64,000 nucleotides of DNA from Burkholderia contaminans (GTDB taxonomy: Bacteria > Pseudomonadota > Gammaproteobacteria > Burkholderiales > Burkholderiaceae), in contig NZ_CP090640.1 in NCBI RefSeq assembly GCF_029633825.1, positions 2,046,001-2,110,000 on the forward strand, written 5' to 3'. The translations under genes were made by a program, and so were the position numbers. Below, piece after piece: positions 19,134 through 24,707 of this stretch (the first letter of the stretch is position 1; the number at the start of each line of letters is the position of its first letter). The notes beneath the pieces were generated by a model, which saw only the letters and a program-made list of their open reading frames with translations, did no database searches and was not told where the DNA came from.

Positions 19134-19571
19134 TCAGCCGTTGCGGCGCGCCTGCGTTTCGGCGGGGCGCAGCTTCGCGGCGAGCTTGTCGAGCACGCCG
19201 TTCACGTACTTGTAGCCGTCGGAGCCGCCGAACGTCTTCGCGAGTTCGACAGCTTCATTGATGATCACGCGGTACGGCGTTTCGACGTGGTGCGTGAGCT
19301 CGAACGTGGCGATCAGCAGCACGGCGCGTTCGACCGGCGACAGCTGGTCGATCGGGCGGTCGAGCGACGGCGTCAGCGCTTCGACGAGCGTGGCGTGCTC
19401 GCGGATCACGCCGTGCAGGATCGCGTCGAGCAGCTCCTTGTCGGCCTTGTCGTACCCGAGCGCGCCGCGCAGTTGCGCGTCGATCTCACCGGAGGACGCG
19501 TTCGACAGCAGCCACTGGTACAGCCCCTGCGTCGCCAGCTCGCGCGATTGTCGGCGGGCGCTCTTCTTCAT
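19134..19571 (-). CDS. nusB: Transcription antitermination factor NusB
   Basis: A 145-residue all-helical RNA-binding protein that, with NusE (S10), binds boxA to support antitermination of rRNA operons. [39 protein letters not shown] and [29 protein letters not shown] match the family throughout. It overlaps ribH by four bases (ATGA at 19568-19571), the usual arrangement in proteobacteria, and is the last gene of the operon. Confidence 0.97.
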
Positions 19572-20083
19572 GCGCGCTCCTCTTCGTCGTCTTCTTCCTC
19601 TTCGTCCTCGTCGTCGTCGCCGAGCTGGTCGAGGGCCATCGTCAGGTTGGCCATCTCGACGGCGACGCGTGCGGCGTCACGACCTTTTTCGGTCATGCGC
19701 GCGACGGCCTGTTCGTCGTTTTCGGTCGTCAGGACCGCGTTCGCGATCGGCAGGTTGAAGTCGAGGCCGATGCGGGTGATGCCCGCGCCGCTCTCGTTCG
19801 ACACGAGTTCGAAGTGGTAGGTCTCGCCGCGGATCACCGCGCCGAGCGCGATCAGCGCGTCGAACTGGCCGCTTTCCGCGAGCTTCTGCAGCGCGAGCGG
19901 GATTTCCAGCGCGCCGGGCACCGACACGAGCAGCACGTCTTCACCGGTGACGCCGAGGCGTTCCAGTTCCTCGACGCACGCGTCGGCGAGGCCGTTGCAC
20001 ACGGGTTCGTTGAAGCGCGATTGCACGATGCCGATACGCAGGCCGTCGCCTTCGAGATTCGGTTGGTATTGTCCGATTTCCAT
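19568..20083 (-). CDS. ribH: 6,7-dimethyl-8-ribityllumazine synthase
   Basis: A 171-residue lumazine synthase, condensing the ribityl-uracil intermediate with dihydroxybutanone phosphate in riboflavin synthesis. [51 protein letters not shown] and the [14 protein letters not shown] [17 protein letters not shown] block are intact. The C-terminus ends in an acidic tail (about 18 Asp/Glu after residue 150), longer than in many homologues. Coupled to nusB by a four-base overlap. Confidence 0.97.
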
Positions 20084-20136: not shown

Positions 20137-21279
20137 TTACGCGTGGGACGCCGGGCAGGACGTGGCTTCGCCGCCGGGCATCGGAATGAAGCCCGTGACT
20201 TCGAGGCCGTAGCCGGACATGCTGCCCAGCTTGCGCGGATTCGACAGCACCTGCATCTTGCCGACGCCGACATCGCGCAGGATCTGCGCGCCGATGCCGA
20301 ACGTCTTGAAATCGACCGGCCGGCGCTTGAGCGCAGCGGCCTTTTCTTCCTCGTCGAACGCCTTGAAGACGTCGATCAGGTGTTCCTTCGTATCGCCGCA
20401 GTTGAGCAGCACGATCACGCCGAGGTCGCGCTCCGCGATCTCGCGCATCGCGGCGTCGAGTGTCCACGAGTGCGTCGACACGCCCGTCTCGAGCAGGTCG
20501 AGCACCGACAGCGGCTCGTGCACGCGCGCCGGCGTATCGACGTCCGGCGACGGCGTGCCGCGCACCAGCGCGATGTGCGGCGAGCCGCTCGGCTGGTCGC
20601 GGTACAGCACCGCGCGGAACGTGCCGTGCGCGGTCTGCATCGTACGCTCGGCGATCCGCTCGATGATCGATTCGGTGCGGCTGCGGTACTGGATCAGGTC
20701 GGCGATCGTGCCGATCTTCAGGTTGTGTTCCTGCGCGAACTCGATCAGGTCGGGCAGGCGCGCCATCGTGCCGTCGTCCTTGATGATCTCGCAGATCACC
20801 GCGGCCGGCGTGAGGCCCGCCAGCGCGGTGAAGTCGCAACCGGCCTCGGTGTGGCCCGCGCGCACGAGCACGCCGCCCGGCTGCGCCATGATCGGGAACA
20901 CGTGGCCCGGCTGCACGATGTGCTCGGGGCGCACGTCGTGCGCGACCGCCGTGGCGATCGTGTGCGCACGGTCGGCGGCCGAGATGCCCGTCGTCACGCC
21001 TTCGGCCGCTTCGATGCTGACCGTGAAGGCGGTGCCGTACTGCGTGCCGTTGCGGTAGGTCATCAGCGGCAGGTGCAGCTGCTTGCAGCGTTCCTGCGTC
21101 AACGTCAGACAAACCAGGCCGCGGCCGTACTTGGCCATGAAGTTGATCGCTTCCGGCGTGACGAATTCGGCGGCGATCACGAGGTCGCCCTCGTTTTCGC
21201 GGTCTTCTTCGTCGACCAGGATCACCATCCGGCCGGCTTTCAGCTCGGCGATGATGTCGAGCGTGGAGGCGAGCGTCAT
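20137..21279 (-). CDS. ribB: 3,4-dihydroxy-2-butanone 4-phosphate synthase with degenerate GTP cyclohydrolase II domain (RibBX-like)
   Basis: A 380-residue two-domain protein. The N-terminal half (residues 1 to about 205) is a complete RibB domain: DEEDRENEGDLVIAAE, RAGHTEAGCDF and EIIKDDGTMARLPDL. The C-terminal half has the fold of GTP cyclohydrolase II (DFKTFGIGAQILRDVGVGKM, SGYGLEVTGF) but where that enzyme has its three zinc cysteines (SECLTGD...RCDCG) this protein reads EPLSVLD and STHSW, and the catalytic QEGRGIG block is also gone. So it should make only the butanone phosphate. Such hybrids have been called RibBX; GTP cyclohydrolase II must come from another ribA. Confidence 0.93.
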   Translation of the reverse strand: MTLASTLDIIAELKAGRMVILVDEEDRENEGDLVIAAEFVTPEAINFMAKYGRGLVCLTLTQERCKQLHLPLMTYRNGTQYGTAFTVSIEAAEGVTTGISAADRAHTIATAVAHDVRPEHIVQPGHVFPIMAQPGGVLVRAGHTEAGCDFTALAGLTPAAVICEIIKDDGTMARLPDLIEFAQEHNLKIGTIADLIQYRSRTESIIERIAERTMQTAHGTFRAVLYRDQPSGSPHIALVRGTPSPDVDTPARVHEPLSVLDLLETGVSTHSWTLDAAMREIAERDLGVIVLLNCGDTKEHLIDVFKAFDEEEKAAALKRRPVDFKTFGIGAQILRDVGVGKMQVLSNPRKLGSMSGYGLEVTGFIPMPGGEATSCPASHA

Positions 21280-21472: not shown

Positions 21473-21991
21473 TCAGGCGTGCTGGTCGCGCCCGCCCAGG
21501 TAGTCGAGCTTGCCGAGCTCGACGCCGCTGTGGCGCAGGATGTCGTACGCGGTCGTCACGTGAAAGAAGAAATTGGGCAGCACGAAGTTCAGCAGGTACG
21601 ACTGGCCGGTGAACTCGATCGGGCCGACGCGCATCTTCAGCACGATCTGGCGCGTCTCGCTGCCGTCGATCTGCGCGGCGTCGAAGCTTTTCAGGTAGTC
21701 GATCGTCTTCTGGATGCGGGCGTGCAGTTCGTCGAAGGTCTGCTCGACGTCCGGGTAGCTGGGGATCTCGGCATCGGCGAGGCGCGCGGCGCAGCCCTTG
21801 GCCGTGTCGGTCGCGATATAGACCTGGCGGACGAGCGGCAGCATGTCCGGGTACAGGCGGGCGCCGATGAACACCGACGGATCGATCTGCTTTTCGGCCG
21901 CATGCGCCTGCGCCTTGCCGAGAATGTGCTGAAGATTGGTCAGGCCACGGATCAGGACAGGCACCGAGGCCTGATACATCGAAATGGACAT
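21473..21991 (-). CDS. DUF1993 family protein
   Basis: A 172-residue soluble helical protein. SMYQASVPVLIRGLTNLQHIL at the start, LYPDMLPLVRQVYIATDTAKG, and the C-terminal FFFHVTTAYDILRHSGVELG are the DUF1993 hallmarks; the family is related to DinB-like four-helix bundles and has no proved activity. It sits in the rib gene cluster where riboflavin synthase would be expected, directly downstream of a ribE remnant, but nothing in it resembles riboflavin synthase. Confidence 0.88.
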   Translation of the reverse strand: MSISMYQASVPVLIRGLTNLQHILGKAQAHAAEKQIDPSVFIGARLYPDMLPLVRQVYIATDTAKGCAARLADAEIPSYPDVEQTFDELHARIQKTIDYLKSFDAAQIDGSETRQIVLKMRVGPIEFTGQSYLLNFVLPNFFFHVTTAYDILRHSGVELGKLDYLGGRDQHA

Positions 21992-22197
21992 GGGGACGAC
22001 TCCTTGAGGAAGAGGGTGACCAATACGCGGCCGCGCCGTGCGTTGCGGCGCCGGAACCGCTGTCGACGCATCTTAGCGCGGCGGCATGACCCGTGCGCGT
22101 AGTTGGCCATTCGGCCAGGTGTCGGCGTGGGCCGGCGAGCGTCGAGCGCAGGCATCGTGGCTTCGACCGGCGACGCGCGGCGCGAAATGGGACGGGA

Positions 22198-22290
22198 GAT
22201 CAGGTAGATCGAGAACGCGCAGCCGCCTGCGCGATCGTCGACCGTGTTGACGGTCGGGCGCACACCGCTGACCGTGATCGACCCGTTCAG
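22198..22290 (-). pseudogene. ribE: Remnant of riboflavin synthase alpha chain
   Basis: On the minus strand about 30 codons read NGSITVSGVRPTVNTVDD then RAGGCAFSIYLI, closely matching the second lumazine-synthase-like repeat of riboflavin synthase, which in homologues I recall reads KGSITVNGVSLTVN, a VDD, and GCEFSINLIPHT. The first two-thirds and the last 40 or so residues of the gene are missing, and none of the three frames downstream restores them. It begins exactly at the ribD stop codon, which lies out of frame inside its first codons. This is the place where ribE stands in the usual ribD-ribE-ribB-ribH-nusB order. Confidence 0.88.
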
Positions 22291-23408
22291 TGCGTGGCGT
22301 CGGGCGGTGCGAAGCGCGCGAGGATCCGCAGGTCGTCGCCGACCCGCTCGATTCCGTGGAACGACAGCCGCGTACGCGCGTCGAGGTTCGCCGGCGCGGC
22401 GAGGTCGAACATGCCGGCCGCATCGGCGCCCAGCAGGCTCGGCGCGAGGTAGACGAGCAATTCGTCGACGCACTGCTCGCGCAGCAGCGAGCCGTTCAGC
22501 TTGTGGCCGGCCTCGACGTGCAGCTCGTTGACGCCGCGCGCGCCAAGCGCCGCCAGCATCGCGGGCAGGTCGACCTTGCCTTGCGCATTCGCGATCGGCA
22601 CGATTTCCGCACCACGCGCCTTCAGCACGTTCGCGCGCACTTCGCCGGCGGCGTCGAGCCGGCCGCAGAAGATCAGCAGCGGCGCACCCTCGAGCAGCCG
22701 CGCATCGAGCGGCAGGTCGAGGCGGCTGTCCACCAGGATGCGCTGCGGCTGGCGCGGCGTGTCGATGCCGCGCACGGTCAGCAGCGGGTTGTCTTCACGC
22801 ACGGTACCGATGCCGGTGAGGATCGCGCAGGCGCGCGCACGCCATGCATGCCCGTCGAGGCGCGCGGCCTCGCCGGTGATCCACTGGCTTTCGCCGGACG
22901 GCAGCGCGGTGCGGCCGTCGAGCGACGCGGCGGTCTTCATCCGCACCCACGGGCGGCCGCGCGTCATCCGCGACACGAAGCCGACGTTCAGTTCACCCGC
23001 TTCGTGCGCGAGCAGCCCGCAGCGCACGTCGATGCCCGCGTCGCGCAGCATGCCGAGGCCGCGCCCCGACACCTGCGGGTTCGGGTCTTCCATCGCGGCG
23101 ACGACTTTCGCGACGCGCGCTTCGATCAGCGCGTTCGCGCACGGCGGCGTGCGGCCAAAATGGCTGCACGGTTCGAGCGTCACGTAGACGGTCGAACCGG
23201 CGACGTCGTAGCCGCGCGCACGCGCGTCTTTCAGCGCCTGCACTTCCGCGTGATCCTGGCCGGCCGGCTGCGTGAAGCCTTCGCCGATCACGTCGCCGTC
23301 CTTTACGATCACGCAGCCGACACGCGGGTTCGGCGCCGTCGTATACATGCCGCGCGCGGCGAGCGCGAGCGCGCGCTGCATGTGGGCGAAATCGATGTCC
23401 GAGAACAT
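22287..23408 (-). CDS. ribD: Bifunctional riboflavin deaminase/reductase
   Basis: A 373-residue two-domain enzyme for the second and third steps of riboflavin synthesis. The N-terminal deaminase has the zinc motifs HAEVQAL and PCSHFGRTPPC; the C-terminal reductase has MKTAASLDGRTALPSGESQWIT, TGIGTVREDNPLLTVR and VEAGHKLNGSLL. It starts 16 bases after hemL on the same strand. Its stop TGA lies within the ribE remnant in another frame, so the native C-terminus may have been altered by the deletion that removed ribE; the last residues (PPDATH) cannot be checked here. Confidence 0.95.
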   Translation of the reverse strand: MFSDIDFAHMQRALALAARGMYTTAPNPRVGCVIVKDGDVIGEGFTQPAGQDHAEVQALKDARARGYDVAGSTVYVTLEPCSHFGRTPPCANALIEARVAKVVAAMEDPNPQVSGRGLGMLRDAGIDVRCGLLAHEAGELNVGFVSRMTRGRPWVRMKTAASLDGRTALPSGESQWITGEAARLDGHAWRARACAILTGIGTVREDNPLLTVRGIDTPRQPQRILVDSRLDLPLDARLLEGAPLLIFCGRLDAAGEVRANVLKARGAEIVPIANAQGKVDLPAMLAALGARGVNELHVEAGHKLNGSLLREQCVDELLVYLAPSLLGADAAGMFDLAAPANLDARTRLSFHGIERVGDDLRILARFAPPDATH

Positions 23409-23423: not shown

Positions 23424-24707
23424 TCAGGCGGCGAGTGCCGCGAATGCGCGGCGCGCGGCCGCGAGCGTCGCGTCGATCACCGCGTCGTCGTGCGTGCTCG
23501 ACACGAAGCCGGCCTCGTACGCGGACGGCGCGAAGTACACGCCTTCGTCCAGCATCAGGTGGAAGAAGCGGTTGAAGCGCTCGGTGTCGCTCTTCGTCAC
23601 TTCGGCGAAGCTCGCCGGCACGCGTTCGGCGAAGTAGAGGCCGAACATCGCGCCGATCGAGTCGGCCGCGAACGGCACGCCGGCCGCACGCGCTTCGGCC
23701 GCGAGGCCGTCGGCGAGACGCTTCGTCTGTGCGGTGAGCGCGTCGTAGAAGCCGGGCGCCTGAATCAGTTGCAGCGTCTTCAGGCCGGCCGCGACCGCGA
23801 TCGGGTTGCCCGACAGCGTGCCGGCCTGGTAGACGCCGCCGAGCGGCGCGAGGTGGGCCATGATGTCGCGGCGGCCGCCGAACGCGGCAGCCGGCATCCC
23901 GCCGCCGATCACCTTGCCGAGGCAGGTGAGGTCGGCCGTGATCCCGTAGTAGGCCTGCGCGCCGCCGAGCGCGACGCGGAACCCGCACATCACTTCGTCG
24001 AAGATCAGCACGGCCCCGTGCTTCGTGCACAGCGCGCGCAGCGCGTTCAGGAATTCGGGCGTGCCGCGCACGAGGTTCATGTTGCCTGCGACCGGTTCGA
24101 CGATCACGGCGGCGATCTCGTCGCCGAACGCGCCGAACGCTTCTTCGAGCGCGGCGACGTTGTTGTATTCGAGGACGGTCGTGTGCTTCGCGATGTCGGC
24201 GGGCACGCCGGCCGACGTCGGGTTGCCGAACGTCAGCAGGCCCGAGCCGGCCTTCACGAGCAGGCTGTCCGCGTGGCCGTGGTAGCAGCCCTCGAACTTG
24301 ACGATGCGGCTGCGGCCCGTGAAGCCGCGCGCGAGACGCAGCGCGCTCATCGTGGCCTCGGTGCCGCTCGACACCATCCGCACCTGCTCGATCGACGGCA
24401 CGAGCTTGCAGATTTCCTCGGCGATCTCGATCTCGGCTTCGGTCGGCGCGCCGAACGAGAAGCCGTCGGCGAGCACGTCCTGCACGGCCGACAGCACTTC
24501 CGGATGGACGTGGCCGACGATCATCGGGCCCCACGAGCCGATGTAGTCGATGTACTGCTTGCCGTCGGCATCCCAGAAGTACGGGCCTTGTGCGCGCGCG
24601 ACGAAGCGCGGCGTGCCGCCGACCGAACGGAATGCGCGCACCGGCGAGTTGACGCCGCCGGGAATGGTTTTCTGGGCGCGTTCGAAGAGGATCTGGTTGT
24701 TGGACAT
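23424..24707 (-). CDS. hemL: Glutamate-1-semialdehyde 2,1-aminomutase
   Basis: A 427-residue PLP enzyme making 5-aminolevulinate in the C5 haem pathway. [51 protein letters not shown] and the PLP lysine in [18 protein letters not shown] are intact, as is GTLSGNPIA. It is followed within 16 bases by ribD, so haem and riboflavin genes are probably co-transcribed. Confidence 0.97.

Follow-up and report, generated by a model that had tools for sequence, protein, structure and literature searches.

Remnant of an operon riboflavin synthase gene in Burkholderia contaminans and its probable displacement by an unlinked homologue

An 89-bp remnant of ribE1 in the rib operon

The rib operon within the 64,000-nucleotide stretch of Burkholderia contaminans DNA analysed here (the window) carries 89 bp of a riboflavin synthase gene, and this piece is very probably the scar of an essential operon gene that was displaced by an unlinked homologue. 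We refer to the operon riboflavin synthase as RibE1, to the unlinked one as RibE2, and to the window genome as G000. The relevant features of the window are:

23424..24707, minus strand: hemL, an open frame conserved beside ribD (label from sequence reading)
22287..23408, minus strand: ribD, intact, 373 aa (TIGR00326, 366 bits against a cut-off of 156)
22282..22289, minus strand: 5′ deletion junction, ~426 bp lost (offset of 426 between the remnant and relatives)
22199..22287, minus strand: ribE1 remnant (codons 138-167), 89 bp, 87-89% DNA identity to four relatives, score 108
22198..22199, minus strand: 3′ deletion junction, ~262 bp lost (the match to G043 begins at 22198)
21473..21991, minus strand: DUF1993-like gene, 172 aa, found after ribE in relatives with a whole ribE (label from the preliminary description)
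20137..21279, minus strand: ribBA, 380 aa (NF010626, 639 bits against a cut-off of 513)
19568..20083, minus strand: ribH, an open frame (label from sequence reading)

A preliminary description of this DNA had proposed a ribE remnant of about 30 codons between ribD and ribB, to be checked against shuffled sequence. The 295-bp interval from the ribD stop to the DUF1993 start (minus strand) scored 108 against RibE1 of a relative, far above 1000 dinucleotide shuffles of the interval (mean 31.4, maximum 54) and 989 random window places (maximum 52), and the remnant is thus real. By tblastn it is 72% identical to RibE1 residues 136-167 (E 3.8e-9). At the DNA level it matches codons 138-167 (numbered on the 209-codon operon gene of G030) of the intact ribE1 genes in G018, G017, G034 and G030, its first bases being common to the old spacer and codon 138. 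Derivation from RibE2 was excluded, as the score against that enzyme was 45. Ten DNA differences in 89 separate the remnant from the intact copies of G018, G017 and G034; about seven of these, as read from the alignment, change the amino acid, and the changes hit conserved positions. With about 30 of the 209 RibE1 codons left, and conserved positions altered, the enzyme is not encodable. Plasmid records gave no match to window positions 21950-22500. We conclude that the 89-bp piece is confirmed as a decayed pseudogene scar of the operon riboflavin synthase.

Two deletions, of ~426 bp and ~262 bp, took away the remainder of ribE1. The 5′ deletion starts at the ribD stop or immediately beyond it, in a stretch over which codons 138-139 closely resemble the spacer, and the 3′ junction fuses codon 167 to the intergenic DNA before DUF1993, the ~262-bp figure being an estimate obtained via the G043 offset. 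The earlier suggestion of a deletion stands, with its ends placed by aligning relatives, but the alignment shows two deletions, not one. The associated idea that ribD had been joined to ribE does not hold: ribD is full length and terminates normally at its own stop immediately before the scar, and the 5′ junction sits at this stop, within a brief run of shared sequence. The last ribD sense codon and ribE are 17 bases apart in many relatives. Nor has the DUF1993-like gene filled the ribE space, as had been supposed; it is the usual downstream neighbour and follows ribE in genomes where that gene is whole, which also excludes it as a ribE replacement. No NCBIfam match was found for it. The ancestral order would have been hemL-ribD-ribE1-DUF1993-ribBA-ribH.

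RibE2, a predicted unlinked riboflavin synthase

The preliminary description had argued for either a second synthase gene elsewhere or dependence on outside flavin. The second copy was found, and dependence on outside flavin need not be invoked for G000. Searching all of G000 with PF00677 returned two domains of one protein only, RibE2, which is intact, 237 aa long and encoded on contig C2 (C2:2641474-2642187). Its two lumazine-binding domains score 83.8 and 68.1 bits (cut-off 27), and the protein lies above three riboflavin synthase equivalog cut-offs (NF009566, 292.9 against 180; NF006767, 195.6 against 155; TIGR00187, 183.8 against 156.6). Residues 1-201 align with the E. coli riboflavin synthase RibC (1i8d), from which RibE2 differs by a C-terminal extension of ~35 residues past the alignment. 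RibE2 shares 34-35% identity with the RibE1 proteins of relatives but 43-46% with the Klebsiella and E. coli synthases; hence, replacement and resident gene differ in descent. The RibE2 frames of all 43 genomes that carry it are stop-free and retain F2, S41 and H103, the last matched to H102 (E. coli numbering) by reading the 1i8d alignment; F2, S41 and H102 are named as important residues in PMC10012899. We infer that RibE2 is a predicted riboflavin synthase that replaces the RibE1 function.

The RibE2 gene lies between a CLC-like channel gene, with which it is convergent, and an ABC-transporter gene (labels from sequence reading). The same site holds RibE2 in 13 of the 13 other RibE2 genomes compared, and is empty in the six compared genomes that lack it (6/6). 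A fluoride riboswitch (RF01734, 41.4 bits) was observed upstream of the CLC-like gene at L083:7956-8059 (G000 C2). In the RibE2 tree G000 (L083:9475-10188) does not stand beside G043, though hemL+ribD and the RibE2-flanking genes pair them. RibE2 of G000 may itself have been exchanged.

Loss of RibE1 across Burkholderia

The survey comprised 65 Burkholderia genomes, the number returned by the genus search. RibE1 was whole in 55, broken in nine and cut by a contig end in one (G024), which supports the earlier view of ribE as the ancestral occupant of this place. RibE2 was present in 43 of the 65. Eight of the genomes with a broken RibE1 carry RibE2 (G000, G022, G043, G008, G049, G026, G063 and G064), and only G010 lacks it. 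The nine broken genomes show eight distinct lesions, seven of them among the eight genomes with RibE2:

G000: codons 138-167 kept
G043: ~7 first codons and the last 26-28 kept
G022: 5′ piece to ~codon 25, start codon altered
G008: 7-bp deletion near codon 8, nothing beyond ~codon 93
G049: first few codons only
G026: degraded 142-193 piece, 52% identity
G063 and G064: 37-49 codons from the 5′ end, plus a shared tail
G010: almost complete, but interrupted by a stop and a 7-bp deletion

In the eight genomes with RibE2 and a broken RibE1, RibE2 was the sole PF00677 protein, RibE1 pieces aside. On a hemL+ribD tree of 65 rows, built by a rapid procedure (26 of the 62 inner branches are starred, close nodes unsure), the minimum number of changes was six for RibE1 status and four for RibE2 presence. 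One older inactivation may be common to sister genomes whose lesions differ (G000 and G043; G008, G010 and G049). Given this possibility, and that of the scar transfer described below, the losses of RibE1 would number between five and eight.

A broken RibE1 was found in 8 of 43 genomes with RibE2 and in 1 of 22 without (Fisher p 0.15, or 0.045 if G010 is left out; both values ignore relatedness). The loss is not strictly tied to RibE2, since G010 has a broken RibE1 and no RibE2. For whole RibE1 (55 copies entered) the dN/dS was 0.149 in the presence of RibE2 (17 pairs) and 0.150 in its absence (10 pairs; p 0.94), and RibE1 dN/dS relative to ribD was higher with RibE2 (p 0.025). These values suggest at most a weak relaxation of selection on the RibE1 retained in RibE2 genomes.

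Likely exchange between species and the exception of G010

On the hemL+ribD tree G063 and G064 stand apart, yet two 100-bp windows at their scar are 100% identical, and their RibE2 is 98-100% identical over ~1 kb, compared with ~91% around it. The near-identical tracts of the two genomes lie in L069/L070 (scar) and L089/L090 (RibE2). Of the 5859 windows of 200 bp on one replicon 6.1% reach at least 99% identity, as do 6.5% of the 2874 on the other; the naive chance that scar and RibE2 both fall in such tracts, reckoned after the fact, is ~0.4%. It is likely that scar and RibE2 both moved between the two lineages. If the scar was shared by recombination, the minimum number of losses drops from six to five.

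G010, the sister of G008 (SH-aLRT 99), has an empty RibE2 site and a RibE1 with a stop and a 7-bp deletion (L068, L296). When the RibE2 locus is divided into 30 windows of 300 bp, G010 and G008 are 97-100% identical in 17 of them. The window at the RibE2 site itself is 85% identical to G008 and 95% to the RibE2-less G062, and a few further tracts like it occur nearby. It seems that an empty allele recombined into this site. A PF00677 search of G010, with E up to 10, returned nothing but pieces of the broken RibE1; one lumazine synthase was found. Either G010 imports riboflavin, or its assembly misses a replicon. We predict that G010 is a riboflavin auxotroph, and it would offer a direct test case for Burkholderia life without a riboflavin synthase of its own.

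RibE1 and RibE2 beyond the genus

Among 80 named ribD loci, 68 had a whole RibE1 downstream and 12 were flagged; PF00677 searches covered 16 of the 80 named genomes, including the 12 flagged. RibE1 proved whole in Paraburkholderia bryophila (L142) and in Caballeronia L161; each had been flagged for one stop in the match, but both domains are open. B. metallica, Paraburkholderia ferrariae and eight Pandoraea have no whole operon RibE1 and one other synthase each, so that in 10 of 10 named loci without a whole RibE1 another, RibE2-like synthase stands alone. In P. ferrariae only residues 1-33 of the operon RibE1 remain, and among the RibE2 relatives one with 83% identity carries this species name (P0012). 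Eight of the nine named Pandoraea lack a whole operon ribE; the ninth, the MAG L183, has the operon type only. The places of the eight Pandoraea synthases coincide with matches 62-63% identical to RibE2, and, at this level of identity, Pandoraea may have acquired its enzyme earlier than Burkholderia acquired RibE2. In 299 family genomes, 61 matched RibE2 at 1e-30; 33 of these belong to Burkholderia, 27 to g11 and 1 to g3. We take g11 to hold Pandoraea, as judged by match coordinates. At least one g11 genome, G074 (1.2 Mb), has no RibE2 match at 1e-30.

Probable displacement of RibE1 and alternative explanations

Most of this Burkholderia branch has, on another contig, the RibE2 gene, whose product resembles E. 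coli RibC more than RibE1, and the presence of RibE2 presumably made RibE1 dispensable through redundancy. In the window lineage two short deletions would have left 89 bp, and the rest would have drifted; other lineages would have lost RibE1 through other lesions. Riboflavin would then be made by RibD, RibBA and RibH of the operon with RibE2 supplied from elsewhere, the flux through RibE2 being presumed. RibE2 seems to pass between species by recombination, as one of the scars probably does. RibE1 was lost where RibE2, or its relative, is present in eight of the nine broken genomes of the genus, with the exception of G010, and in all ten named loci. A broader claim is doubtful, namely that throughout the Burkholderiaceae the operon synthase was repeatedly displaced by an unlinked RibC-like enzyme, that scar and replacement depend on each other and move together between species within short recombination tracts, and that the empty RibE2 site brought back in G010 left no recognisable riboflavin synthase and made import obligatory.

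It is improbable that the loss is real but RibE2 is not a working replacement, with riboflavin imported or made by another enzyme. G010, without both known copies, hints that life without them may be possible; however, RibE2 is intact, exceeds the equivalog cut-offs, keeps the named residues and is the only PF00677 protein, RibE1 pieces aside, of the eight RibE2-bearing genomes with a broken RibE1. The window genome is known from a single assembly, but to regard its broken ribE as an assembly or sequencing artefact is scarcely credible when hemL, ribD, DUF1993 and ribBA around the scar are all open, eight other genomes are broken too, with different lesions, and Pandoraea and P. ferrariae agree with ribE loss. 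Relatives retain other ribE pieces or almost none, no Rfam family reached the gathering score in the eight rib loci scanned, and the changes in the 89 bp lie at conserved positions; retention of the piece for a separate function, for instance as a regulatory RNA or small peptide, is therefore very unlikely.

In xenologous gene displacement, the role of a resident gene passes to a homologue with a different ancestry, and the resident degenerates. Displacement of RibE1 resembles this in that RibE2 is of other descent and RibE1 has decayed. It goes beyond it in that several lineages with different lesions are involved, one scar was probably transferred, and one lineage (G010) lost the newcomer too. 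Events in which an operon gene is repeatedly displaced by an unlinked homologue are of a known kind, and this is an unusually clear and well replicated record of one: an essential gene left its operon where a redundant homologue was present, and the manner in which the resident was lost varied among lineages. According to PMC10012899, Aeromonas salmonicida has an operon ribE1 and a ribE2 outside the operon, an arrangement likened there to Shewanella oneidensis and Pseudomonas putida. Either single ribE mutant matched the wild type in growth, but in the fish host it was the operon copy and not ribE2 that was required, so the two copies need not be equivalent (PMC10012899). As here, the two synthases are about one third identical (33% there, 34-35% here) and one lies outside the operon; unlike here, where the operon copy is a scar, both are whole. 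The titles and abstract openings consulted held nothing on ribE loss in Burkholderia or Pandoraea, nor on repeated loss of the operon copy, which does not prove that no such report exists. Lumazine synthase is the subject of the flavophos preprint (PMC12871164), which has no bearing on RibE2. The drug-target section of a genome-scale model places RibE among the essential enzymes of B. cenocepacia (PMC3123600); our results caution that in Burkholderia the operon RibE should be treated neither as the sole riboflavin synthase nor as a drug target.

Additional observations at the rib loci

In G049, G017, G057 and G001 (L066, L074, L075 and L077) ~4 to 10 kb are inserted before DUF1993, after ribE (or ribD), and this site is likely an insertion hotspot. 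An FMN riboswitch on the rib operon was excluded, none being found at the gathering score in the eight rib loci scanned with Rfam. G000 has an FMN riboswitch outside the window (C1:511719-511867, L276), before a ribB-like frame. A second one was observed in G026 (L272), G017 and G049, and in G026 it precedes a ribH-like frame (both frames labelled by reading).
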